Below are positions 25,526-39,526 of a stretch of DNA of 39,526 nucleotides, one piece after another; within the stretch, counting starts at the first letter, position 1, and the number at the start of each line of letters is the position of its first letter. The stretch spans positions 1-39,526 of the forward strand of contig JAFQOJ010000059.1 in the NCBI GenBank assembly GCA_017403265.1, given 5' to 3'. The DNA is from Clostridia bacterium. GTDB lineage: Bacteria; Bacillota; Clostridia; Oscillospirales; Acutalibacteraceae. A program made the translations under genes and the position numbers. The notes beneath the pieces were generated by a model. That model made no database searches and was not told where the DNA came from. It worked only from the letters and a program-made list of their open reading frames with translations.

Positions 25526-25554
25526 TTGACAAAATAATTTTAAGTGGATATAAT
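25526..25554 (+). promoter_or_regulatory. Sigma-A promoter of the aspS-gatC/gatA/gatB operon
   Basis: TTGACA (25526-25531), 17-base spacer, TATAAT (25549-25554): perfect consensus. Transcription should begin right at stem I of the T-box. Confidence 0.88.
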
Positions 25555-25560
25555 ATTGTG

Positions 25561-25768
25561 TGAAGACTCGGCTTTTATGGAAAGTCTGTCAGGGAGAATG
25601 TGTCATGGACTGAAAGCACATTTGAGATGAGTAGTAAGCTTGGGAACACTTCAACGGCAAACCCTAAAATTTAATATTTTAAAGTGGATGCTATGCATCA
25701 AAACGGGTGGCACCGCGGGTAAAATTGTTTTTCTCGCCCCGAAAATTCGCAAGAATTTTCGGGGTGTT
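25561..25768 (+). promoter_or_regulatory. T-box riboswitch, probably sensing tRNA-Asn
   Basis: Uncharged tRNA stabilises an antiterminator and turns on the genes downstream. The T-box proper, GGGTGGCACCGCGGG, is at 25704-25718. A terminator follows (CCCCGAAAATTC 25736-25747 with its complement 25752-25763, then a T run). Stem I is closed by TGAAG (25561-25565) with CTTCA (25649-25653); the apical part is ATGTG/CACAT with a GGGAGA bulge. In the specifier position, just before the 3' arm, the triplet AAC (25645-25647) is followed by A, as the T-box rule expects, and is an Asn codon. The acceptor-pairing motif is TGGC, whose C matches a G73 discriminator, as in tRNA-Asn. Both features agree with the operon's job. 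Confidence 0.88.
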
Positions 25769-25811
25769 TTTGTTTTTGTATTAGGGTATACTTTTTATAG
25801 GAGGAACGGAT

Positions 25812-27929
25812 ATGTACAGAACACATCATTGTAATGACATTAGCGAGGCTTTTGTCGGAAAGGAAGTAGAGCTTGCAGGCTGGATTCAGTCCAAGCGTGA
25901 CCACGGCGGAGTTTTGTTTGTAGACCTTCGTGATAGCACAGGCGTGGCACAGTTGGTTGTAAACGACCCCGAAACTATTGAAAAGCTTGATTCTAACAAA
26001 ATTGAAACCGTAATTTCGGCTAAGGGTGTAGTATCGCTTCGCGACGAGGAAACTGTAAATGAAAATATTGCAACGGGTAAGGTAGAGCTTATTGTTGATA
26101 AGTTTGAGGTTTTAGGTAAATGTACCAAGAATTTGCCTTTTGAAATTCTTACTTCTAAATCTTCAAACGAAAACTTAAGACTTAAAAACCGCTTTTTAGA
26201 CCTTAGAAATCCTAAGGTTTCTTCAAGCATTTATAAGCGTTCGCAAATTATAAAATATATGCGTGAACTTATGGAAAACGAAGGCTTTTTGGAAATTCAA
26301 ACCCCAATTTTAACAGCATCTTCTCCTGAAGGTGCGCGTGACTTTTTGGTGCCTTCAAGAAAGCATATTGGTGAATTTTATGCCCTTCCTCAAGCACCGC
26401 AGCAGTTTAAGCAATTACTTATGGTTTCGGGCTTTGACAGATACTTCCAAATAGCGCCCTGCTTTAGAGATGAGGATGCCCGTGCTGACCGATCCCCAGG
26501 TGAATTTTATCAGCTAGACTTTGAAATGGCTTTTGCTACCCAAGAAGAAGTCTTGGCTGTTTGTGAGCGTGTTATTCGCGCTATATTTACAAAATTCCAA
26601 GGTGACCACAAGCCCGTAAATAAAGAGCCTTTCAGACACATTACCTTTAAAGAGGCTATGCTTAAATACGGTAGCGATAAGCCTGATTTACGCAACCCCA
26701 TTGAAATTTGTGATTTAACCGAATTCTTTAAAAATGTTAATTTCCCTGTTTTCAAAAATAAGGTTGTAAGAGCAATGGTCGCTCCCTGTAAAAATGAGCG
26801 TTGGTTTTTTGATAAATCATTAGCCTTTGCTACAAAAGAGGTTGGGATGCAGGGGCTTGCGCACATTACCCTTTTGGATGAAAGTAAATGCGAATTTAAG
26901 GACGACCCAATTGTTAAAAAACTAAGTGATGAGCAGAAAAAGGATATTATCGATCTTACAGGTGTCCGCAACGGCGAAACAGTATTCTTTGTATCCGATA
27001 TGGTTGAAGAAATTGCTGCTAAGAATGCAGGTATTGTTCGTAACTGGCTTGGTAAGGAATGTGACCTTATTGATAATAAGAGCTTTGAATTCTGCTTTAT
27101 TGTTGATTTCCCAATGTATGAGCATGACGAAAGCACAGATAAAATTATCTTTACACATAACCCGTTCTCTATGCCACAAGGCGGTTTGGATGCACTTTTA
27201 AATAAAGAACCCACCGAGATTTTGGCTTATCAGTACGACTTAGTATGTAACGGTATTGAATTAGCATCGGGTGCGGTTAGAAACCACGATATTGAAATTA
27301 TGCGTAAAGCATTTGAAATTGCAGGCTACACCGAACAAGAATTGGCTTCTCGCTTTAGCGCTTTGTATGAAGCATTCCAATACGGTGCACCGCCACATGC
27401 TGGTATGGCTCCCGGTGTTGACCGAATGATAATGCTTTTAGAAGATACCGAAACCATCCGCGATGTAATTGTATTCCCGCTTGATGGTAATGCTCGCGAC
27501 CAGATGTTAGGTGCGCCAAGCCCTGTTAGCGAAATGCAACTCTTTGAAGCAAATATCGCGGTTAGAGGAACCGAGGGTGCAAGAGCTTCCCTTGGCGGAG
27601 GTAGTGCTACCATCGAGGCGGGCGTTACTAAAGTTGTGGCCGAAATGTCCCAAGACGATAAGCTTAAAGCTTTAGAGAGTGTAAACGAAATTAAGCTTAC
27701 CGATAGTGAAAAACCCACTATGAAAAACATTTTCGATAGTATGAAATCTGCTGAAAAAGCATTGACCGCTATTGATACCGAGAACGTAGAGCCTATGGTT
27801 TACGTGGCTCCTCGCTTTAATGTTTTCCGTAACGATATTCGCGTACAAAACTTTGACAGAAGCGCTCTTTTAAAGGGTGCGCCTGACAAAAATGAAGACA
27901 GTTGGATTGTTCCAAAGGTTGTGAAATAG
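25812..27929 (+). CDS. Aspartate--tRNA ligase fused to amidotransferase subunit GatC
   Basis: This 705-residue protein combines two steps of tRNA-dependent asparagine formation. Residues 1 to about 590 are an AspRS: OB-fold anticodon domain (LAGWIQSKRDHGGVLFVDLRD), class II motif 2 with CFRDEDARADRSPGEFYQLD, motif 3 with GMAPGVDRMIML. Residues about 615-705 are a complete GatC: DKLKALESVNEIKLTD, a helical hairpin, NVEPMVYVAPRFNVFRND and LLKGAPDKNEDSWIVP. No separate gatC is present, and gatA and gatB follow. I infer that this AspRS is non-discriminating and misacylates tRNA-Asn, the ordinary aspS at 11387 serving tRNA-Asp. AGGAGG precedes the ATG, and expression is set by the T-box. Confidence 0.93.
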   Translation: MYRTHHCNDISEAFVGKEVELAGWIQSKRDHGGVLFVDLRDSTGVAQLVVNDPETIEKLDSNKIETVISAKGVVSLRDEETVNENIATGKVELIVDKFEVLGKCTKNLPFEILTSKSSNENLRLKNRFLDLRNPKVSSSIYKRSQIIKYMRELMENEGFLEIQTPILTASSPEGARDFLVPSRKHIGEFYALPQAPQQFKQLLMVSGFDRYFQIAPCFRDEDARADRSPGEFYQLDFEMAFATQEEVLAVCERVIRAIFTKFQGDHKPVNKEPFRHITFKEAMLKYGSDKPDLRNPIEICDLTEFFKNVNFPVFKNKVVRAMVAPCKNERWFFDKSLAFATKEVGMQGLAHITLLDESKCEFKDDPIVKKLSDEQKKDIIDLTGVRNGETVFFVSDMVEEIAAKNAGIVRNWLGKECDLIDNKSFEFCFIVDFPMYEHDESTDKIIFTHNPFSMPQGGLDALLNKEPTEILAYQYDLVCNGIELASGAVRNHDIEIMRKAFEIAGYTEQELASRFSALYEAFQYGAPPHAGMAPGVDRMIMLLEDTETIRDVIVFPLDGNARDQMLGAPSPVSEMQLFEANIAVRGTEGARASLGGGSATIEAGVTKVVAEMSQDDKLKALESVNEIKLTDSEKPTMKNIFDSMKSAEKALTAIDTENVEPMVYVAPRFNVFRNDIRVQNFDRSALLKGAPDKNEDSWIVPKVVK

Positions 27930-27940
27930 AGGTGTTTAAG

Positions 27941-29122
27941 TTGAAATATATAAGTGTTATGGATAAAAAAGGCAATATAGCCGTTGACGATAACATTCTG
28001 GTTAAAGATGTTTTGTCAACTGCTGGCTCACATATTTTGGATGGATTTACCCCACTTTTTAGTGCTGAAGCAGTGACAAGGCTTGAAAATAAGGGTTATA
28101 AAATTTCGGGTAAGGCTAATGTGGGCGAGTTTGGACTTGATTTATTAGGTGAAACCTCGTATTACGGCGCTTTAGCAGAGGACGGCAAAATAAAAAATGC
28201 CGCAGCCCAAGTAGTAGCATCGGGTGAAGTGGAAGCCGCATTGTGTGTTGATTTGGGCGGCTCTCCCAGACGCGCCGCTGCAGTAGAAAATGTAACATTT
28301 TTAAAGCCTACCTACAGTACTGTTTCGCGCTATGGCGTAATAGCTTGTATGTGCTCGGCTGAGCAGATAGGCGTTATGGCAAAGGATGCTAAAAAGGTTG
28401 CCGAAGTTATGTCGGTAATAGCAGGACATGACGATAAAGACGGCACAAGCGACCCGAAAGAAGCTTATGATTACTCTCTTACAGAAGATATTAAGGGTAA
28501 AAAAGCCTGCATCATAAAAGAACTTTTAGACGCTGCTGATGATGCGGTTAAGGTAAAGGTTTTGGCTTATAAGAAAAAACTTGAAGCCTTAGGCATCACT
28601 GTAGAGGAAGTTTCTTTCGGCTTAATTCCTGCCGCACAGTCAGCTTGGCAGATTCTTTTATCGGCTGAAACCTGTAATAACCTTTCTAAGTTTGACGGTG
28701 TTAAGTACGGCTACCGTACTTCTAACTTTAAAAATATTGACGATATTTACGTTAACACAAGAACCGAAGGCTTAGGGTTACTTGCAAAGAGTGTTATACT
28801 TTACGGCTCGGATGTTTTATCTAAGGGTAGATATGAAGTTTGTTACGATAAGGCTATGCGAGTGCGCAGAGTGGTAACAGAAAGCTTTAAGAAGATTTTT
28901 GAAAATTATGATTTAGTTCTTAGCCCTGCTACAAGTACTGATTCATACGCTCAGTACGATTTAAACGATGCTTTCGATAAGGTATTTTCTGAAAGTAAAT
29001 ACACCGTTTTAGCCTCTTTGTCAGGTACACCTGCATTAGTGACTTCGGGCATACAGCTTTTAGCAGACGCATTTAATGAGAACATTCTTTTGAGTGCAGC
29101 AAACGCAGTAGAGGAGGTATAA
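27941..29122 (+). CDS. gatA: Divergent, short amidotransferase subunit GatA
   Basis: GatA normally hydrolyses glutamine and sends ammonia to GatB. This protein of about 393 residues (usual length about 480) is placed by ILVKDVLSTAGSHILDGF (the catalytic-Lys region), KPTYSTVSRYGVIA, the C-terminal end and gene order. Three things are odd. About 60 N-terminal residues are missing. The amidase-signature GGSSGGSAAA, which carries the cis-serine of the Lys-Ser-Ser triad, is replaced by EDGKIKNAAA. The nucleophile motif DTGGSIR reads DLGGSPR, keeping the Ser. The arginine-bearing EVKRR stretch that helps to bind glutamine is not evident. It may be a weak or non-glutaminase subunit, or use another ammonia source. 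The start is TTG 27941 after GAGGTG. Confidence 0.82.
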   Translation: MKYISVMDKKGNIAVDDNILVKDVLSTAGSHILDGFTPLFSAEAVTRLENKGYKISGKANVGEFGLDLLGETSYYGALAEDGKIKNAAAQVVASGEVEAALCVDLGGSPRRAAAVENVTFLKPTYSTVSRYGVIACMCSAEQIGVMAKDAKKVAEVMSVIAGHDDKDGTSDPKEAYDYSLTEDIKGKKACIIKELLDAADDAVKVKVLAYKKKLEALGITVEEVSFGLIPAAQSAWQILLSAETCNNLSKFDGVKYGYRTSNFKNIDDIYVNTRTEGLGLLAKSVILYGSDVLSKGRYEVCYDKAMRVRRVVTESFKKIFENYDLVLSPATSTDSYAQYDLNDAFDKVFSESKYTVLASLSGTPALVTSGIQLLADAFNENILLSAANAVEEV

Positions 29123-29124
29123 CA

Positions 29125-30546
29125 ATGGCTTACGAAATAGTAATTGGTCTTGAAACACACGTTGAGCTTTCAACTAAGTCAAAGCTTTTCTGCTCCTGCG
29201 GTGGTCACTCCGAAGCTAACGAGCCTAACGATTGCGTATGCCCCGCTTGTTGTGGTATGCCGGGTATGCTTCCTGTAGTTAATAAGCAGGCTATCGAGCT
29301 TGCAGTAAAGGCTGGCTTAATGCTTAACTGTAAAATTAATCAGTACACTACCTTTGATAAAAAGAGCTACTATTATCCCGACCTTCCTGCCGCTTATCAA
29401 ACAACACAGTGGTTTAATCCGATTTGTGTTGAAGGTTTAGTAGATGTTGAAACATCTATTGGTATTAGTAAAATCGGAATCAAGCAAATCCACGTTGAAG
29501 AAGATGCGGGTAAATTAGTGCATACAAACGATTCTTCACTTGTTGACTACAACCGCACAAGCGTACCGCTTATTGAGATTGTTACAAAGCCTGATTTCAG
29601 AAGCGCCGAAGAGGTTATAAGTTATCTTAAAACGTTAAAAAGCAAGCTACAGTTTGCGGGAATTTCAGAATGTGAAGAAGGCGCAATGCGTTGTGATATT
29701 AATATTTCGGTTCGTCCTGAAGGCAGTGATATTTTAGGTGTTAGAACCGAAATTAAGAATATGAGTTCGCTTACATCTATTGAAGAAGCTATAAATAAAG
29801 AAGCTATTCGCCATATAGATGCGCTTGAAAGAAGAACCGAAGTTTTAGTACAGGAAACTCGCCGTTGGGACGATGTTAAAAAACGCACCTTCCCAATGAG
29901 AAATAAGGAAACTGCGGCAGATTACCGCTACTTCCCTGACCCGAATGTAATGCCGGTAGTTATTGATGATAAATGGCTACAGGAAATTAAGGACAGTATG
30001 CCAAAAACCATTGATGAACAGGTAGAGAGATATATGGCTTTGGGTCTTTCTCAAAGAGAGGCTGCTGCCATCGTTTCAGAGCCGATTTTAATTGAACTTT
30101 TGGATGATATGGTTTCAAAAGATATAGATGTTAAAGCGGCTGCAGGTTGGATTTTGACTGACTACCTTGGTATCCTTAAAAAGAATAATATTCAGGCAAA
30201 GGACATTGCACTTGACGGCGAGAAGCTTGCTTGGATTATTAAGACCGCCCAAAGCGGAGAAATCACAAGAAATACAGGTAAAACCGTGCTTTCTGCAGTT
30301 ATTTTAGAGAATGCAGATCCCAAGACTTACTGCGAACAAAATAACCTTATGGTTAAAACCGATTTGGATTTAATTAAAAAGGTTGTAGTTAAAGCAATTG
30401 AAGCAAATCCAAAGGCAGTAGAAGATTATAAAGCAGGTAAAGAAAAGGCATTACTCGCTATTTTCGGCTTTGCTATGCGAGAACTTCGCGGAGCAGGCTC
30501 ACCTGATTTAATTAGACAAATATTACTTGAAAGTTTAGCTGAGTAA
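29125..30546 (+). CDS. gatB: Asp-tRNA(Asn)/Glu-tRNA(Gln) amidotransferase subunit B
   Basis: GatB activates the misacylated tRNA's side-chain carboxylate with ATP and amidates it. The 473-residue length is normal. Seen: VIGLETHVEL at the start, the zinc-binding cysteines (LFCSCGG ... DCVCPACCGMPGMLPV), KSYYYPDLPAAYQTTQ (usually DLPKxYQ, here Ala), HVEEDAGKL, NRTSVPLIEIVTKPDF and the C-terminal YqeY/GatB tail domain for tRNA binding. Unlike GatA it is well conserved. Its ribosome-binding site GAGGAGGT lies within the last codons of gatA, so translation is coupled. A strong terminator follows. Confidence 0.96.
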   Translation: MAYEIVIGLETHVELSTKSKLFCSCGGHSEANEPNDCVCPACCGMPGMLPVVNKQAIELAVKAGLMLNCKINQYTTFDKKSYYYPDLPAAYQTTQWFNPICVEGLVDVETSIGISKIGIKQIHVEEDAGKLVHTNDSSLVDYNRTSVPLIEIVTKPDFRSAEEVISYLKTLKSKLQFAGISECEEGAMRCDINISVRPEGSDILGVRTEIKNMSSLTSIEEAINKEAIRHIDALERRTEVLVQETRRWDDVKKRTFPMRNKETAADYRYFPDPNVMPVVIDDKWLQEIKDSMPKTIDEQVERYMALGLSQREAAAIVSEPILIELLDDMVSKDIDVKAAAGWILTDYLGILKKNNIQAKDIALDGEKLAWIIKTAQSGEITRNTGKTVLSAVILENADPKTYCEQNNLMVKTDLDLIKKVVVKAIEANPKAVEDYKAGKEKALLAIFGFAMRELRGAGSPDLIRQILLESLAE

Positions 30547-34033: not shown

Positions 34034-34825
34034 TTAGTCGCCTTCATTCAATAAATCACGCACTTTTTCTATGCTTTTGTACGCTCTTGTGAGAAAATCT
34101 AAGGGTGAAATGCCGTTATACATTTCATTCTTTGCAAAAACTTCAAGCATTAAAGGACCTGTGAAGCTGGTTGCTTTAAGGTTTTTAATTGAAGATTTAT
34201 AATCAATTTTTCCGTCAAAAGGGATAAGGTGTAAATCTCCGCCCTTTTCACAGTTATTATCGTGAATGTGGGTGCAAAGAAGCTTATCACCGTATATTTT
34301 TAAATATTCTATATCTTCGGTAAAGCAGTTTTCATGGCCAACATCCCAACAAAAGCCTACATTACTGTACTCCTTAAAGGTGTTCATAGCCCACTCAAGA
34401 TATGGGAAATTTCTAAGATTTTCAAAAGCAATTTTTACATTTCTGTCTTTAGCGTACCCTACTATATTTTTAAAGCGGGTTTTGCCGAGCTCGGTCATAG
34501 GGGGCGGGTTAAAGCCGGAAGAAATGTGAACTACTGCAATAGGCACATCTGCTTTTTCACAAATGGAGATACAAGACAGAATGCTTTCATACATCTTGTC
34601 ACCTTTTTCACCTTCTTGCCATAGACTGTAAGTGCCCATATAGGGAGCGTGAATAAAGGAATATTCTAAACCGTATTCTTTACAAAGGGCAGCAATTTCT
34701 TGCGGGCAATCGCAGGTTGTCATATCTGAAAATACAGCGGTGAAGCCCAATTCTTTAGCTGCTTTTATATAATCACGGTAGGAAAAACCATCTACAGCAT
34801 CAAGATTTATTCCTAATTTTTGCAT
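34034..34825 (-). CDS. Sugar phosphate isomerase/epimerase-like TIM-barrel protein
   Basis: The 263-residue protein belongs to the xylose-isomerase-like TIM-barrel (AP endonuclease 2) superfamily: FIHAPYMG, VVHISSG, the metal-binding Glu in KIAFENLRN, FCWDVGHENCF (Asp/His), CTHIHDNN (His/Asp) and the final Glu in MLEVFAKNE. Members isomerise or epimerise sugars, and the substrate cannot be read from sequence. AGAGGC precedes the ATG, with a consensus promoter about 30 bases before that. It is the first gene of a two-gene operon with an OpgB-like transferase, so a role in envelope sugar metabolism is possible but unproven. Confidence 0.85.
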   Translation of the reverse strand: MQKLGINLDAVDGFSYRDYIKAAKELGFTAVFSDMTTCDCPQEIAALCKEYGLEYSFIHAPYMGTYSLWQEGEKGDKMYESILSCISICEKADVPIAVVHISSGFNPPPMTELGKTRFKNIVGYAKDRNVKIAFENLRNFPYLEWAMNTFKEYSNVGFCWDVGHENCFTEDIEYLKIYGDKLLCTHIHDNNCEKGGDLHLIPFDGKIDYKSSIKNLKATSFTGPLMLEVFAKNEMYNGISPLDFLTRAYKSIEKVRDLLNEGD

Positions 34826-34894: not shown

Positions 34895-34923
34895 TTGACA
34901 AATGGAATTTTGAGTGATATAAT
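34895..34923 (+). promoter_or_regulatory. Sigma-A promoter of the first T-box/acyl-CoA synthetase gene
   Basis: TTGACA (34895-34900), 17-base spacer, TATAAT (34918-34923): perfect consensus, divergent from the promoter at 34858. Confidence 0.88.
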
Positions 34924-34929
34924 GTTTCA

Positions 34930-35196
34930 CATCTTAAAAAAGCTTTGACGAAGACGGTTTGGATAACAAACTTTGCAGAGAGTCGGCGGTTGGTGAAAGC
35001 CGATAGTGAGTGTCCTTACAACCCATCCCTTCCGAGCTGAAAGGCTGAACAGTTTTAGTAGGTCTTTTCGTGATTGCTGCGTAAATGCATAGGAATTGTT
35101 GGATTCCAAGAGTGGCAGGTTTACTGCAATTTGAGTGGTACCGCGAGTGTAAATTCACACCCGTCTCAAAGAAATTTGAGATGGGTGTTTTTTATT
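34930..35196 (+). promoter_or_regulatory. T-box riboswitch before acyl-CoA synthetase 1 (A73 tRNA)
   Basis: T-box sequence GAGTGGTACCGCG (35133-35145) and a strong terminator (35157-35170 with 35175-35188, then T run). Stem I has an AGAGAG bulge (from about 34976) and a GTCGGC/GCCGAT apical stem around CGGTTGGTGAAA, and a lower stem GAAG (34950-34953) with CTTC (35029-35032), then CGAGC. The acceptor motif is TGGT: its U fits a tRNA with A73 and argues against Ser (G73) or Cys (U73). The specifier is not certain. Aligned with the second leader on the CTTC block it is ATC (Ile, 35025-35027); by the following-purine rule it could be CCC (Pro, 35022-35024). Confidence 0.88.
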
Positions 35197-35228
35197 TTAA
35201 TACTATTATATGAAAGGGAGTAATCAAT

Positions 35229-37496
35229 TTGACTACCAACACCGCAAAAGAACAGTTAATGGAAATCGCATCGCGAATAAAGGAGTTGCGCGAGATTATG
35301 GGTTGGACTACTGCCCAAATGGCAGAGAAGACCGAAGTGAGTGAAGAAAAGTATATTATATTTGAAAGCGCAAATGCAGATATTCCCTTTTCGTTTATTC
35401 ACAAGTGCGCTGTAGCATTTGATGTTGAAATGACCGAATTGCTAGAAGGTAGAACCGCAAAGCTTTCTACCTATACAGTAACCCGTAAGGGTAAAGGACA
35501 AAAAACTGCTAAGGAAGACGGAATTGATATTACTAACCTAGCGCCTAAGTTCCGTGATAAAATTGCTGAGCCTTATTTTGTGCGCTATGAATACTCGGCT
35601 TCACAGCAAAATAAACCTATACATCTTTCTACCCACTCTGGACAGGAGTTTGACTTTATTTTAAGCGGCTCTTTAAAGGTACAGGTAGGCGAGCATACAG
35701 AAGTTTTACACGAAGGCGATAGCATTTACTATAATTCTTCAGTGCCCCACGGTATGATAGCTGTTGATGGGGAAGACTGTGTTTTCTGTGCAGTTGTTTT
35801 ACCAGGTGAAGAGGTTAAGGAAGAAACCGTACGAAAAAGCATTGCTTCCGCTAAAAATTCGGAAAAGCTTGTTTGCGAAAAATTTGTAGACACTGTAGAA
35901 GACGAAAACGGTTGTTTAAAGGATATTAAATTCAAAAATACCGATGTATTTAACTTCGGTTTTGATATTGTTGACGGTATTGCAAACAAATATCCCGAAA
36001 AGCTTGCTATGCTTCATGTTGACAAAAATAAAACAGAGCACCGCTTTACCTTTAAGGATATGAAACGCGCGTCTAATCAATGCGCAAATTATTTTACATC
36101 CTTAGGTATTAAGCGCGGCGACAAGGTAATGCTTGTGCTTAAACGCCATTATCAGTTCTGGTTTGCTATGGTAGCGCTTCATAAAATCGGTGCAGTAGCA
36201 ATTCCTGCTACAAATCAGCTTAAAGACCACGATTTTGAGTATAGATATAAAGCCGCAGGCGTTAGCGCTTTAATTTGTACCGCCGATGGCGATACTGCCC
36301 AAATTGCAGAACGCGCCGCAAAGAACTGCGACTGCGTAAAACAGCTTATAATGGTTGGTGGCAAGCGTGACGGCTGGCACGATTTCGATAACGAATATAA
36401 GCTTTATTCAGGTAAGTTTGACCGCCCCAAAGATGCTTCTGCAGGTGATGAAGCAGCGCTTATGTTCTTTACTTCAGGTACAACAGGTAATCCCAAAATG
36501 GCGGCTCATAAGCATACCTATGCTTTAGGTCATTTTGTGACTGCTAAATATTGGCATTGCTGTGAGCGTGATGGCTTGCACCTTACCATTTCTGATACAG
36601 GTTGGGGTAAATCACTTTGGGGTAAGCTTTACGGTCAGTGGCTATGCGAAGGTGCGGTATTTGTTTACGACTTTGATAAGTTTGATGCAGACGATATTTT
36701 ACCAATGTTTGCTAAGTATAACATAACTACCTTCTGTGCACCGCCTACAATGCTTCGTATGCTTGTAAAGAGCGACCTTTCTAAGTACGATTTATCATCA
36801 ATTCACCATATGACTACTGCAGGTGAAGCGCTTAATCCTGAAGTTTTCCGCCAGTTTGAAGAAGCAACAGGACTTCAGATAATGGAAGGCTTCGGTCAGA
36901 CCGAAACCACTCTTACAATTGCTAACCTTTACGGTACAACACCAAAGATCGGCGCTATGGGTAAGGCTTCTCCGCAATATGATGTGGATATAGTAGACCC
37001 TGACGGTAACTCGGTGGCTGACGGTGAAGTTGGTGAAATTGTTGTAAGAACAAGTGAGACTGTTCCTTGCGGACTCTTTAGAGAATATTATCTTGATGAT
37101 GAAAAAACAAGCGAAGCTTGGTATGACGGTATGTATCACACAGGCGATACTGCTTGGCGTGATGAAGACGGTTACTTCTGGTATGTAAGCCGTATTGATG
37201 ATGTTATTAAGTCTTCAGGCTACCGTATAGGACCGTTCGAAATTGAAAGCGTAATTATGGAATTGCCGTATGTATTAGAATGCGGTGTTTCTGCCGCTCC
37301 TGATGAGGTTCGCGGTCAGGTTGTTAAGGCAAGTATAGTGCTTACAAAGGGTACAAAGCCTTCTGAAGAACTTAAAAAAGAAATCCAAAATTATGTTAAA
37401 ACTCATACTGCGCCTTATAAATATCCGCGCGTTGTAGTTTTCCGTGATGAATTGCCGAAGACTATAAGCGGTAAGATTCAGCGTAATAAATTATAA
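35229..37496 (+). CDS. XRE-HTH + cupin + acyl-CoA synthetase fusion, copy 1
   Basis: A 755-residue, three-domain protein. Residues about 14-72 are an XRE helix-turn-helix (IKELREIMGWTTAQMAEKTEVSEE). Residues about 115-195 are a cupin with HSGQEFDFILSGSLKVQVG and GDSIYYNSSVPHGMIA (likely ligands H136, E140, H174). Residues about 245-755 are an AMP-forming acyl-CoA synthetase: FFTSGTTGNPK (415-423), EGFGQTETT, YHTGDTAWRDEDGYFWYVSRIDD and the catalytic Lys in PKTISGKIQ (K749). It should activate a carboxylic acid to its CoA thioester; the acid is not known. HTH-cupin pairs usually sense small ligands and repress transcription. The start is TTG 35229 after GGGAG. T-box control suggests an acid derived from, or needed for, an amino acid. 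Confidence 0.9.
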   Translation: MTTNTAKEQLMEIASRIKELREIMGWTTAQMAEKTEVSEEKYIIFESANADIPFSFIHKCAVAFDVEMTELLEGRTAKLSTYTVTRKGKGQKTAKEDGIDITNLAPKFRDKIAEPYFVRYEYSASQQNKPIHLSTHSGQEFDFILSGSLKVQVGEHTEVLHEGDSIYYNSSVPHGMIAVDGEDCVFCAVVLPGEEVKEETVRKSIASAKNSEKLVCEKFVDTVEDENGCLKDIKFKNTDVFNFGFDIVDGIANKYPEKLAMLHVDKNKTEHRFTFKDMKRASNQCANYFTSLGIKRGDKVMLVLKRHYQFWFAMVALHKIGAVAIPATNQLKDHDFEYRYKAAGVSALICTADGDTAQIAERAAKNCDCVKQLIMVGGKRDGWHDFDNEYKLYSGKFDRPKDASAGDEAALMFFTSGTTGNPKMAAHKHTYALGHFVTAKYWHCCERDGLHLTISDTGWGKSLWGKLYGQWLCEGAVFVYDFDKFDADDILPMFAKYNITTFCAPPTMLRMLVKSDLSKYDLSSIHHMTTAGEALNPEVFRQFEEATGLQIMEGFGQTETTLTIANLYGTTPKIGAMGKASPQYDVDIVDPDGNSVADGEVGEIVVRTSETVPCGLFREYYLDDEKTSEAWYDGMYHTGDTAWRDEDGYFWYVSRIDDVIKSSGYRIGPFEIESVIMELPYVLECGVSAAPDEVRGQVVKASIVLTKGTKPSEELKKEIQNYVKTHTAPYKYPRVVVFRDELPKTISGKIQRNKL

Positions 37497-37522
37497 GGTA
37501 TAAGCTATTTTACACTTTAATA

Positions 37523-37551
37523 TTGACAATTTTCCAATGTTGTGATATACT
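37523..37551 (+). promoter_or_regulatory. Sigma-A promoter of the second T-box/acyl-CoA synthetase gene
   Basis: TTGACA (37523-37528), 17-base spacer, TATACT (37546-37551). No terminator separates it from copy 1, so some read-through is possible. Confidence 0.82.
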
Positions 37552-37557
37552 CTTACA

Positions 37558-37825
37558 GTAAAGGCTTTGACGGAGAGTATGCAAAAATTTGTATATTAGA
37601 GAAGTGACGGTTGGTGCAAGTCATTTATGCGGTTTTTGTGTTGTAACTTCTGAGCTGAGGGGAAGAAAGTCTAAGACAAGTAGAACCCCTTCGTGATTGC
37701 TGCGTAAACGCATAGGAATTGTTGGATTCCAAGAGTGGCAGGTTTTCCTGCAATTTGAGTGGTACCGCGGGTATAGATAATTAATCAATGCTCGTCTCAA
37801 AGTCATAACTTTGGGACGGGTTTTA
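37558..37825 (+). promoter_or_regulatory. T-box riboswitch before acyl-CoA synthetase 2 (A73 tRNA)
   Basis: T-box GAGTGGTACCGCGGG (37757-37771) and terminator (37791-37802 with 37809-37820, then T run). Its central part, GTGATTGCTGCGTAAACGCA onward through the antiterminator, is nearly identical to the first leader, but stem I differs. Lower stem GGAG (37572-37575) with CTTC (37647-37650), the S-turn AGTA at 37576, and an upper stem CAAAAA/TTTTTG leave a short specifier loop. There GTA (Val, 37643-37645), followed by A, is the best triplet. TGT (Cys) is also followed by A, but the TGGT acceptor motif demands A73, which speaks against Cys. Confidence 0.88.
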
Positions 37826-37864
37826 TTATTGTTAGAATCTGTCCTACATTGACGGAGGAGAATT

Positions 37865-39526
37865 ATGGAACAAATAAAGGAACTTGATTTTAAAATTAAG
37901 GAAATTGCTGGGCGTATTAGAGAACTGCGCGAAATTGAAAATTTATCGGTTGCCGATATGGCTACAAGAACGGGTGTTAGTGAAGAAGAATATCTAGCTT
38001 GTGAAAAAGGCGAAAGTGATTTACACTTTGCCTTTATTTACCGATGTGCCAATGCATTTAATGTTGACGTTACCGATATTATCGAAGGTTATAGTCCTAG
38101 GCTTAAATCATTTACTGTAACCCGTAAGGGTGAAGGTCAGCGCATAGAAAAAGCACACGGTATGACCTATTATAACTTAGCTTCAGCTTTTAAAAACAGA
38201 ATAGCCGAGCCGCTTTATGTAAAAAGCGTTTATAGCGAAGAGGCTCAAACCAAGGAAATAGAGCTTACAACCCACTCAGGTCAAGAATGCGACCTTATTA
38301 TTTCAGGTCACTTAAAGGTACAGGTTGGTAACCATACCGAAGTTTTAGGTCCTGGGGATAGCATTTATTTTGACTCTAATACACCCCACGGTATGATTGC
38401 CGTAAACGGTGAAGACTGTACCTTCTACGCTATTGTTCTTAACCCAACAGGTGAGCCTATCCCTGAATTAGAGCCTGATAAGACGATTGACGGTAAGGTA
38501 TCAACCCGTATTCGTAAGGACCGCAAGGAGCGCATTTATAGCAAGTATATCGATGTTGAAGAAAACGAAAACGGCACACCTACTTCTATAAGTTTCAAGA
38601 ATACCGAAAAGTTTAACTTCGCTTTCGATTTAGTAGATGCTTTGGCTGAAAAAGAGCCTGAAAAGCTTGCTATGTTACATATCTCGCGCGACGGTACAGA
38701 ACGTCGCTTTACCTTTAAGGATATTAAAAAGGCGTCTAACCAATGCGCTAATTATTTTAAGTCCTTAGGCATTAAAAAAGGCGATAGGGTAATGCTGGTT
38801 CTTAAAAGGCATTATCAGTTCTGGTACTGTATGATGGCGCTTAACAAGCTTGGCGCGGTTGTTATTCCCGCTACAAATCAGTTGCAAGAGCACGATTTCG
38901 AGTACCGCTTTAAGTCGGCAGGGGTGACCGCTATTGTTTGTACTGCTGATGGCGACACCGCCGCTCAGGTTGATTTAGCTGCCCAAAAATGCCCCGAGTT
39001 AAAGCATAAAATGATAGTTAACGGCAAGCGTGACGGTTGGCGCACATTTGATGAAGAATATCCCCTTTATTCAACCCGCTTCAAGCGTACCGAGGATTCA
39101 CCCTGCGGTGAAGATTTAATGCTTATGTACTTTACTTCTGGTACAAGCGGTTATCCGAAAATCGCAGCACACAACTATAAATACCCGCTCGGTCATTTCC
39201 ATACTGCAAAGTATTGGCACGATGTTGACCCCGAAGGCTTACATTTTACCATTTCTGATACAGGTTGGGCGAAGGCTATGTGGGGTAAATTATACGGTCA
39301 ATGGTTAGCAGAAGCTGCAATCTTTGTGTATGATTTTGACCGTTTTGATGCGGCAGAAATTTTACCGATGTTTGCAAAGCATCAAATTACTACCTTCTGT
39401 GCACCGCCTACAATGCTTCGTATGCTTATTAAACAGGATATTTCCAAATATGATTTATCGTCAGTAAAGCATATGACTACTGCGGGTGAGGCACTTAATC
39501 CCGAAGTTTACCGTCAGTTTGAAAAA
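37865..39526 (+). CDS. XRE-HTH + cupin + acyl-CoA synthetase fusion, copy 2 (cut by window end)
   Basis: Open from ATG 37865 (GGAGGAG seven bases upstream) to the last base of the window, 554 codons without a stop. It is a full-length-type paralogue of the gene at 35229: HTH with IRELREIENLSVADMATRTG, cupin with THSGQECDLIISGHLKVQVG and GDSIYFDSNTPHGMIAV, and the synthetase domain through YFTSGTSGYPK, TISDTGWAKAMWGKLYGQWL and TTAGEALNPE. The missing end should hold the GFGQTE and C-terminal lysine motifs. The acid-pocket region is similar but not identical (KYWHDVDPEG versus KYWHCCERDG), so the two may favour different acids, as their leaders may favour different tRNAs. Confidence 0.9.
   Translation, partial: MEQIKELDFKIKEIAGRIRELREIENLSVADMATRTGVSEEEYLACEKGESDLHFAFIYRCANAFNVDVTDIIEGYSPRLKSFTVTRKGEGQRIEKAHGMTYYNLASAFKNRIAEPLYVKSVYSEEAQTKEIELTTHSGQECDLIISGHLKVQVGNHTEVLGPGDSIYFDSNTPHGMIAVNGEDCTFYAIVLNPTGEPIPELEPDKTIDGKVSTRIRKDRKERIYSKYIDVEENENGTPTSISFKNTEKFNFAFDLVDALAEKEPEKLAMLHISRDGTERRFTFKDIKKASNQCANYFKSLGIKKGDRVMLVLKRHYQFWYCMMALNKLGAVVIPATNQLQEHDFEYRFKSAGVTAIVCTADGDTAAQVDLAAQKCPELKHKMIVNGKRDGWRTFDEEYPLYSTRFKRTEDSPCGEDLMLMYFTSGTSGYPKIAAHNYKYPLGHFHTAKYWHDVDPEGLHFTISDTGWAKAMWGKLYGQWLAEAAIFVYDFDRFDAAEILPMFAKHQITTFCAPPTMLRMLIKQDISKYDLSSVKHMTTAGEALNPEVYRQFEK

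Follow-up and report, generated by a model that had tools for sequence, protein, structure and literature searches.

Tandem helix-turn-helix-cupin-acyl-CoA synthetase fusions behind isoleucine and valine T-box leaders: a predicted link between branched acids and amino-acid supply in gut Clostridia

The 39,526-nucleotide (nt) stretch of DNA analysed here, referred to as the window, is the whole of contig C56 (JAFQOJ010000059.1) in an assembly of a Clostridia bacterium (GCA_017403265.1), and two tandem genes that reach the end of this contig raise the question of why acyl-CoA synthetases should be placed behind leaders that read tRNA, and which acids such enzymes would activate. The best reading of the combined data is that gene 1 would activate 2-methylbutyrate for isoleucine synthesis and gene 2 isobutyrate for valine synthesis, in both cases via reductive carboxylation. 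The features of the tandem are as follows.

34895..34923, + strand: sigma-A promoter of gene 1, TTGACA-17-TATAAT (12/12), TG before the -10
34936..35171, + strand: T-box leader 1, RF00230, 101.8 bits, E 1.9e-22, above the gathering score of 93
35025..35027, + strand: specifier codon ATC (Ile) of leader 1, 6 nt upstream of the Stem I base GAG, from the Rfam alignment
35136..35139, + strand: TGGT antiterminator bulge of T-box 1
35157..35188, + strand: terminator hairpin of 14 pairs and T run, leader 1
35229..37496, + strand: gene 1 (A type), TTG start, 755 amino acids (aa), predicted 2-methylbutyryl-CoA synthetase (inferred substrate)
37523..37551, + strand: sigma-A promoter of gene 2, TTGACA-17-TATACT (11/12), TG before the -10
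37558..37802, + strand: T-box leader 2, RF00230, 92.9 bits, E 3.9e-20, 0.1 bit under the gathering score of 93
37643..37645, + strand: specifier codon GTA (Val) of leader 2, at the same distance of 6 nt from the Stem I base GAG
37760..37763, + strand: TGGT antiterminator bulge of T-box 2
37790..37821, + strand: terminator hairpin of 14 pairs and T run, leader 2
37865..39526, + strand: gene 2 (B type), truncated by the contig end after 554 aa, predicted isobutyryl-CoA synthetase (inferred substrate)

The initial annotation had given each gene its own sigma-A promoter, T-box and terminator, and this layout was confirmed by the promoter matches, the RF00230 hits and the hairpins. When the leaders were compared with the covariance model, leader 1 cleared the cut-off; leader 2 fell just below it and keeps Stem I, the specifier, the TGGT bulge and the terminator despite its score. 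Scans returned 10 promoter-like and 5 terminator-like sites, and shuffles gave 7.0 and 2.3, so that only the quality and place of these sites count in their favour.

To place the pair among its kin, genome contigs were scanned for relatives of gene 1; at least 552 stretches were confirmed, of which the best 80 were taken. Because these loci were picked by likeness to gene 1, they are close kin (best segment 72-93% identity); many are titled as gut bins from ruminants or rabbits, under the labels Clostridia or Oscillospiraceae. Copies were assigned to the A or B class according to whether the protein was more or less than 70% identical to gene 1, and the leader was not used in the assignment. 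Asked how often a T-box precedes the three-domain fusion, the search found a T-box core at most 500 nt upstream of 80 A and 55 B copies (the window counted), and the sole copy without one was the A copy of L067, which begins at a contig end. TGGT was present in 135/135 A and B leaders, where the core served as the search pattern. A promoter was matched in 73/80 A leaders, some of which (L032, L035, L041) look false, and in 54/55 B leaders.

The specifier codon was found to separate the two classes. In the A leaders it was ATC in 79/79 that could be read: 76 by pattern, two (L046 and L070) at the second pattern match, and one (L081) by eye, with the A copy of L067 (leaderless, as its contig begins at the gene) and the A leader of L032 (27 nt kept) left out of the count. 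In the B leaders it was GTA in 53/55 and GTC in 2/55, a silent change that supports the valine reading. As same-genome controls, the same register gave UUC before pheS-pheT, AUC before ileS, and UGG before trpB, and the control genes were all above their family cut-offs (TIGR00468, 374 bits; TIGR00472, 800; TIGR00392, 966; TIGR00263, 510). On the strength of these specifiers and controls, the leader of gene 1 should read tRNA-Ile and that of gene 2 should read tRNA-Val.

For two T-boxes of the same genome (G000), on contigs outside the window, the neighbouring genes were also recorded. On the 6.5 kb contig C12 (L015:1197-2769), the T-box with the Trp codon UGG stands ahead of a solitary gene for tryptophan synthase beta, above the TIGR00263 cut-off, with no other trp gene seen among the six long frames of the contig; this arrangement may serve indole salvage. 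On contig C38 (L013:3437-10612), a T-box with the Leu codon CUC precedes a LeuA-like gene that scores under every isopropylmalate synthase cut-off shown. Behind that gene come an 828 aa protein in which a xylose-isomerase-like TIM barrel is joined to an AMP-forming ligase, then an amidohydrolase, MetY and MetA. Genes belonging to this row's first three clusters sit just upstream of the tandem in several relatives, and CUC was seen again in T-boxes of L059 (48-285) and L085 (1436-1689). The CUC T-box row may be a third, leucine arm.

We then considered the proteins. In gene 1 the helix-turn-helix (HTH) occupies residues ~15-74, the cupin 134-189, the AMP-binding domain 252-621 (PF00501, 229 bits) and the AMP-binding_C domain 671-749 (PF13193, 76.5 bits); gene 2 follows this order with the HTH, the cupin and most of the AMP-binding domain, its truncation falling ahead of the C-terminal domain. 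Cupin_2 and AMP-binding were above cut-off in both genes, whereas HTH_19 (cut-off 30.2) was below it in gene 1 (25.6) and above it in gene 2 (35.2). Residue K749, which we take to be the catalytic lysine of AMP-forming acyl-CoA synthetases, was kept in 79/79 A and 50/50 B copies that reach it. An unbroken fused frame was found in 80/80 of the related loci fetched (in L093, where the A copy is broken, the B copy supplies it). The fusion is thus no assembly artefact, and the single chain of HTH, cupin and AMP-forming acyl-CoA synthetase that had been described from the letters is real and conserved.

Having established the fusion, we asked which acid each enzyme might take. The best solved match, in the ligase part, was 3etc (622 bits), presumably Macs of Methanosarcina acetivorans, the entry itself being titled AMP-binding protein. 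Like gene 1, this protein has the motif GWGK and a tryptophan, Trp259, to which W442 (kept in 80/80 A and 55/55 B copies) would correspond by a numbering offset of one. It differs in being a 580 aa chain without the HTH-cupin, since it matches from query residue 231 on, and the type of gene 2 has Ala in place of its Gly. According to a passage of PMC10455477, Macs prefers 2-methylbutyrate. The nearest NCBIfam model was MbcS (NF047394), and S. aureus MbcS is stated in part of PMC10026030 to act on 2-methylbutyrate and isobutyrate. The residue that sets the two classes apart was located as follows.

36606..36608, + strand: codon of Gly460 (GWGK), acyl-pocket candidate of gene 1; Gly in 80/80 A copies, also in 3etc
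39269..39271, + strand: codon of Ala469 (GWAK) of gene 2, equivalent to Gly460 of gene 1; Ala in 54/54 B copies covering it

In this comparison 80 A and 55 B proteins were used. Position 460 probably lies in the acyl pocket. The acetyl-CoA synthetase residue aligned to it is a pocket valine, and Gly, Ala and Val would on that basis match C5, C4 and C2 acids.

Further copies were next examined. Twenty-five further fused copies, none at least 97% alike to the 80 loci over 1 kb, were collected, and a T-box preceded 23 of them, with the codon ATC in 17 and GTA or GTC in 6. In these readings L107 and L125 were read by eye, the A copy of L147 was taken from the Rfam alignment, and of two matches the one at the GAG was used. 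The residue followed the codon in these copies as well: ATC went with Gly in 17/17, and GTA or GTC with Ala in the 5/5 that cover the residue. The standalone ligase of L120 also has ATC with Gly.

An AMP-forming ligase was also met elsewhere in the window's own genome. On contig C37 (L017:1426-6824), IorA and IorB (both above cut-off) and a PaaK-like ligase (497 of 646 bits) stand in a row, adjoined by another AMP-forming ligase. This row is probably the aryl-acid arm of the same chemistry.

Clustering and family searches of the relatives revealed what lies downstream of the tandem: a P-loop ATPase, the VorB of a 2-ketoisovalerate:ferredoxin oxidoreductase (VOR), the beta and gamma subunits of a 2-oxoacid:ferredoxin oxidoreductase and, in many cases, IlvE, with a small ferredoxin in between at L104 and L101, the two loci for which short frames were listed. 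One representative each of VorB (567 bits, cut-off 399) and type II IlvE (478.6 bits, cut-off 307) was above cut-off. By tblastn, VorB was found downstream in 43/44 tandem loci whose downstream DNA spans 2.8 kb or more and in 10/20 single-copy loci, or 53/64 overall; a count based on open reading frames (48/64) had missed genes masked by opposite-strand frames, and the tblastn count was used instead. IlvE was found downstream in 25/64 loci (tblastn), a count limited by flank length.

The gene content of whole genomes was then surveyed in 60 genomes with completeness of 85 or more, own included. ilvC was present in 2/41 genomes with the fusion versus 14/19 without it (Fisher p 6.5e-8), and ilvD was found in exactly the same 16 genomes; both were absent in 39/41 genomes with the fusion. 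VorB, by comparison, was present in 38/41 genomes with the fusion versus 7/19 without it. Within the genus, ilvC was present in 1/32 genomes with the fusion versus 5/5 without, and in control genomes the ilvC and ilvD families were both matched in 14/14. Four genomes (G037, G040, G050, G056) were counted as not fused, and their separate frames were confirmed (L098, L102, L100, L099); if they are counted as fused, ilvC is present in 3/45 versus 13/15 (p 1.0e-8). Because the genomes are related, these p-values overstate independence. In the window's own genome (74 contigs, 87% complete), no ilvC or ilvD match was found.

Given these results, we consider it very probable that the two genes are paralogues for enzymes that activate branched acids, and that each gene is switched by the tRNA of whichever amino acid is formed from its enzyme's product. 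In the proposed scheme, uncharged tRNA-Ile would allow read-through into enzyme A, which would activate 2-methylbutyrate, and uncharged tRNA-Val would allow read-through into enzyme B, which would activate isobutyrate. VOR would then reductively carboxylate the acyl-CoAs to 3-methyl-2-oxovalerate and 2-oxoisovalerate, which IlvE would aminate to isoleucine and valine, respectively. In rumen fermentation, 2-methylbutyrate is a precursor of isoleucine and isobutyrate of valine, as a passage of PMC7356843 has it. The initial annotation had tied the acids to amino-acid supply, with branched-chain or aryl acids as examples; the Ile and Val codons, VorB and IlvE in relatives, the loss of ilvC and ilvD, and the kinship with Macs and MbcS make branched acids the best reading.

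Several observations weigh against this account. The gene 1 protein (P0001) scored 440.8 against the cut-off of 850 of the MbcS equivalog NF047394, and the beta and gamma subunits behind VorB (one representative each) were under their family cut-offs. VorB was not found in the flank searched at 10/20 single-copy loci and 1/44 tandem loci, and two genomes (G007 and G049) carry the fusion and also ilvC and ilvD. Neither VorB nor IlvE was found in the own genome's 74 contigs, which are 87% complete and in which the contig ends inside gene 2; we assume that the contig break and the incompleteness account for this. Among the further copies, the fused L139 has no T-box, and in L146 (3440-3520) a B gene lies 64 nt behind an A gene with no T-box of its own, where the Ile leader may control both genes together. 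The split pair L125 combines an Ile T-box (codon by eye) with Ala at the pocket position. Moreover, the match of codon and residue may reflect one duplication.

The origin of the fusion was also considered. Thirty non-fused loci were fetched, and in 25 of them a separate HTH-cupin gene was found upstream of the ligase gene; in L101 this pair sits after VorBAC-like genes. No HTH-cupin gene was seen in the DNA examined at the other five (L103, L120, L121, L135, and L130, which starts at a contig edge). When 23 split pairs were scanned with Rfam, in DNA extending no more than ~1.5 kb upstream of the match, a T-box was found in one, L125, between its two genes; for L102 and L117 the check covered just the core motif. 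Among 398 genomes drawn from the phylum, with two candidates scored per genome, a Macs-like ligase was found in 74, and a stop-free match across the whole fused protein in six, own included. In a FastTree tree of the ligase part, which took in 51/55 B copies (length filter), A formed one clade (support 0.90), and the monophyly of B was not settled.

What the HTH-cupin module contributes was considered separately, as the enzyme had initially been thought to be a DNA-binding regulator as well. Its predicted model, taken alone, was of fairly good confidence, with a mean pLDDT (predicted local distance difference test) of 83 and a pTM (predicted template modelling score) of 0.55. The best fold matches were 1y9q, an annotated HTH_3 regulator, and, nearly as close, the epoxidase HppE (1zz6 and others), with E of 3e-13 for the fold matches, and the sequence search agreed. 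Both have an HTH and a cupin in one chain; unlike them, the module here is fused to a ligase, identity is ~20%, and the TM-score over the module is 0.40-0.47, a low value perhaps due to uncertain domain orientation. Residues H136, E140 and H174 were invariant in 80 A and 55 B copies, in a pattern that resembles the His-Glu-His metal site of HppE. Positions separating A from B were some eightfold concentrated in the module (16/87, versus 7/298 in the ligase; Fisher p 9e-7; positions conserved in both groups, linker 196-215 left out), which fits ligand recognition differing between A and B.

That the module is a DNA-binding autoregulator, adding ligand control at the promoter to tRNA control at the leader, would be compatible with the branched-acid account, and the HTH Pfam hits, the closeness to 1y9q and the separate HTH-cupin genes that directly precede the ligase gene in 25 examined relatives speak for it. 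We nevertheless judge it unlikely. A conserved operator at the genes' own promoter was sought around the -10 of the matched A and B promoters, and nothing was conserved beyond the extended -10 (TGTG before TATAAT), nor was a palindrome shared; sites further upstream were not searched. Residues 28-46, the second and third HTH helices, are acidic, their net charge averaging -4.1 over 79 A copies and -3.6 over 55 B copies, and HppE, which scores nearly as well as 1y9q, is an enzyme. For these reasons a DNA-binding role is not supported and is not our leading idea; the module more probably serves the enzyme in an allosteric or structural way. Tentatively, and with rather less than even confidence, we suggest that it is not a transcription factor but senses an amino acid or an acyl-CoA, perhaps with a metal site like that of HppE, and so provides each synthetase with feedback control of its own. 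A second level of sensing through the cupin may exist; if the sensor idea holds, the same amino acid would tune one protein at two points, through tRNA charging in the leader and through a ligand acting on the enzyme.

A competing view of the enzymes themselves is that they make branched acyl-CoA primers for membrane lipids, the T-boxes merely reporting scarce branched carbon. MbcS, the nearest curated family, invites it, since S. aureus MbcS supplies FabH primers according to part of PMC10026030, where its activity covers both 2-methylbutyrate and isobutyrate. However, MbcS is one enzyme for both acids and serves lipid synthesis, whereas here two genes carry two different amino-acid codons, VorB and IlvE lie downstream in relatives, and ilvC and ilvD are lost where the fusion is present; we thus regard lipid priming as improbable. 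Least probable of all is a catabolic direction in which VOR would oxidise 2-oxoacids and the synthetases would run in reverse to gain ATP, as AMP-forming synthetases normally spend ATP, a T-box switches genes on in amino-acid shortage, which fits synthesis, and ilvC and ilvD are lost. What can be said for it is that NDP-dependent acyl-CoA synthetases of Pyrococcus furiosus turn acyl-CoA to acid and conserve ATP (PMC3942289).

For the preferred reading, in which the pair feeds isoleucine and valine synthesis, two elements are already known, namely T-box control of branched-chain synthesis and the physiology of branched acids in the rumen. To our knowledge, the activating enzymes behind rumen use of isobutyrate and 2-methylbutyrate, and their control, have so far been hard to name. 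A passage of PMC2494555 states that T-boxes control branched-chain amino-acid synthesis in Bacillales and Clostridia. The leaders described here are like such RF00230 T-boxes in their Stem I, specifier, TGGN bulge, terminator and Ile/Val codons; unlike in those systems, they stand before acyl-CoA synthetases assigned to a carboxylation route, which apparently replaces ilvC and ilvD. The scheme likewise resembles the reductive carboxylation of rumen anaerobes, in which 2-methylbutyrate gives isoleucine and isobutyrate gives valine (PMC7356843), and a passage of PMC2812497 describes a probable reductive carboxylation route to isoleucine in M. ruminantium. No genes are described in those passages, in contrast to the dedicated genes with amino-acid-specific leaders found here.

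Literature searches, which did not extend to two classic reviews, returned no paper linking T-boxes to acyl-CoA synthetases, 2-methylbutyrate, ferredoxin oxidoreductase, XRE or reductive carboxylation. The main text of Wels 2008, supplements apart, has no word beginning with 'acyl' or 'CoA', and that of TBDB, again supplements apart, none beginning with 'acyl' or 'ligase'. This absence from print is only as strong as the searches made. The predicted system would give a genetic basis to the long-known use of branched acids by rumen microbes and would extend T-box control to a pathway that seemingly replaces ilvC and ilvD. Because the leader codon predicts the acid of each enzyme, substrate, regulation and pathway would be testable with one gene pair. 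It would also offer a genome-based way to tell which gut bacteria may depend on the branched acids of their neighbours.

Other features were noted in the window. A gene for a xylose-isomerase-like TIM barrel (34034-34825, minus strand) lies back to back with gene 1, and its Pfam domain is the one also fused to a ligase on C38. At 25554-30546, a weak T-box match (43 bits) precedes a 705 aa AspS-GatC fusion, behind which lie GatA and GatB. Finally, a class A RNase P RNA was found at 1567-1933 (264 bits).

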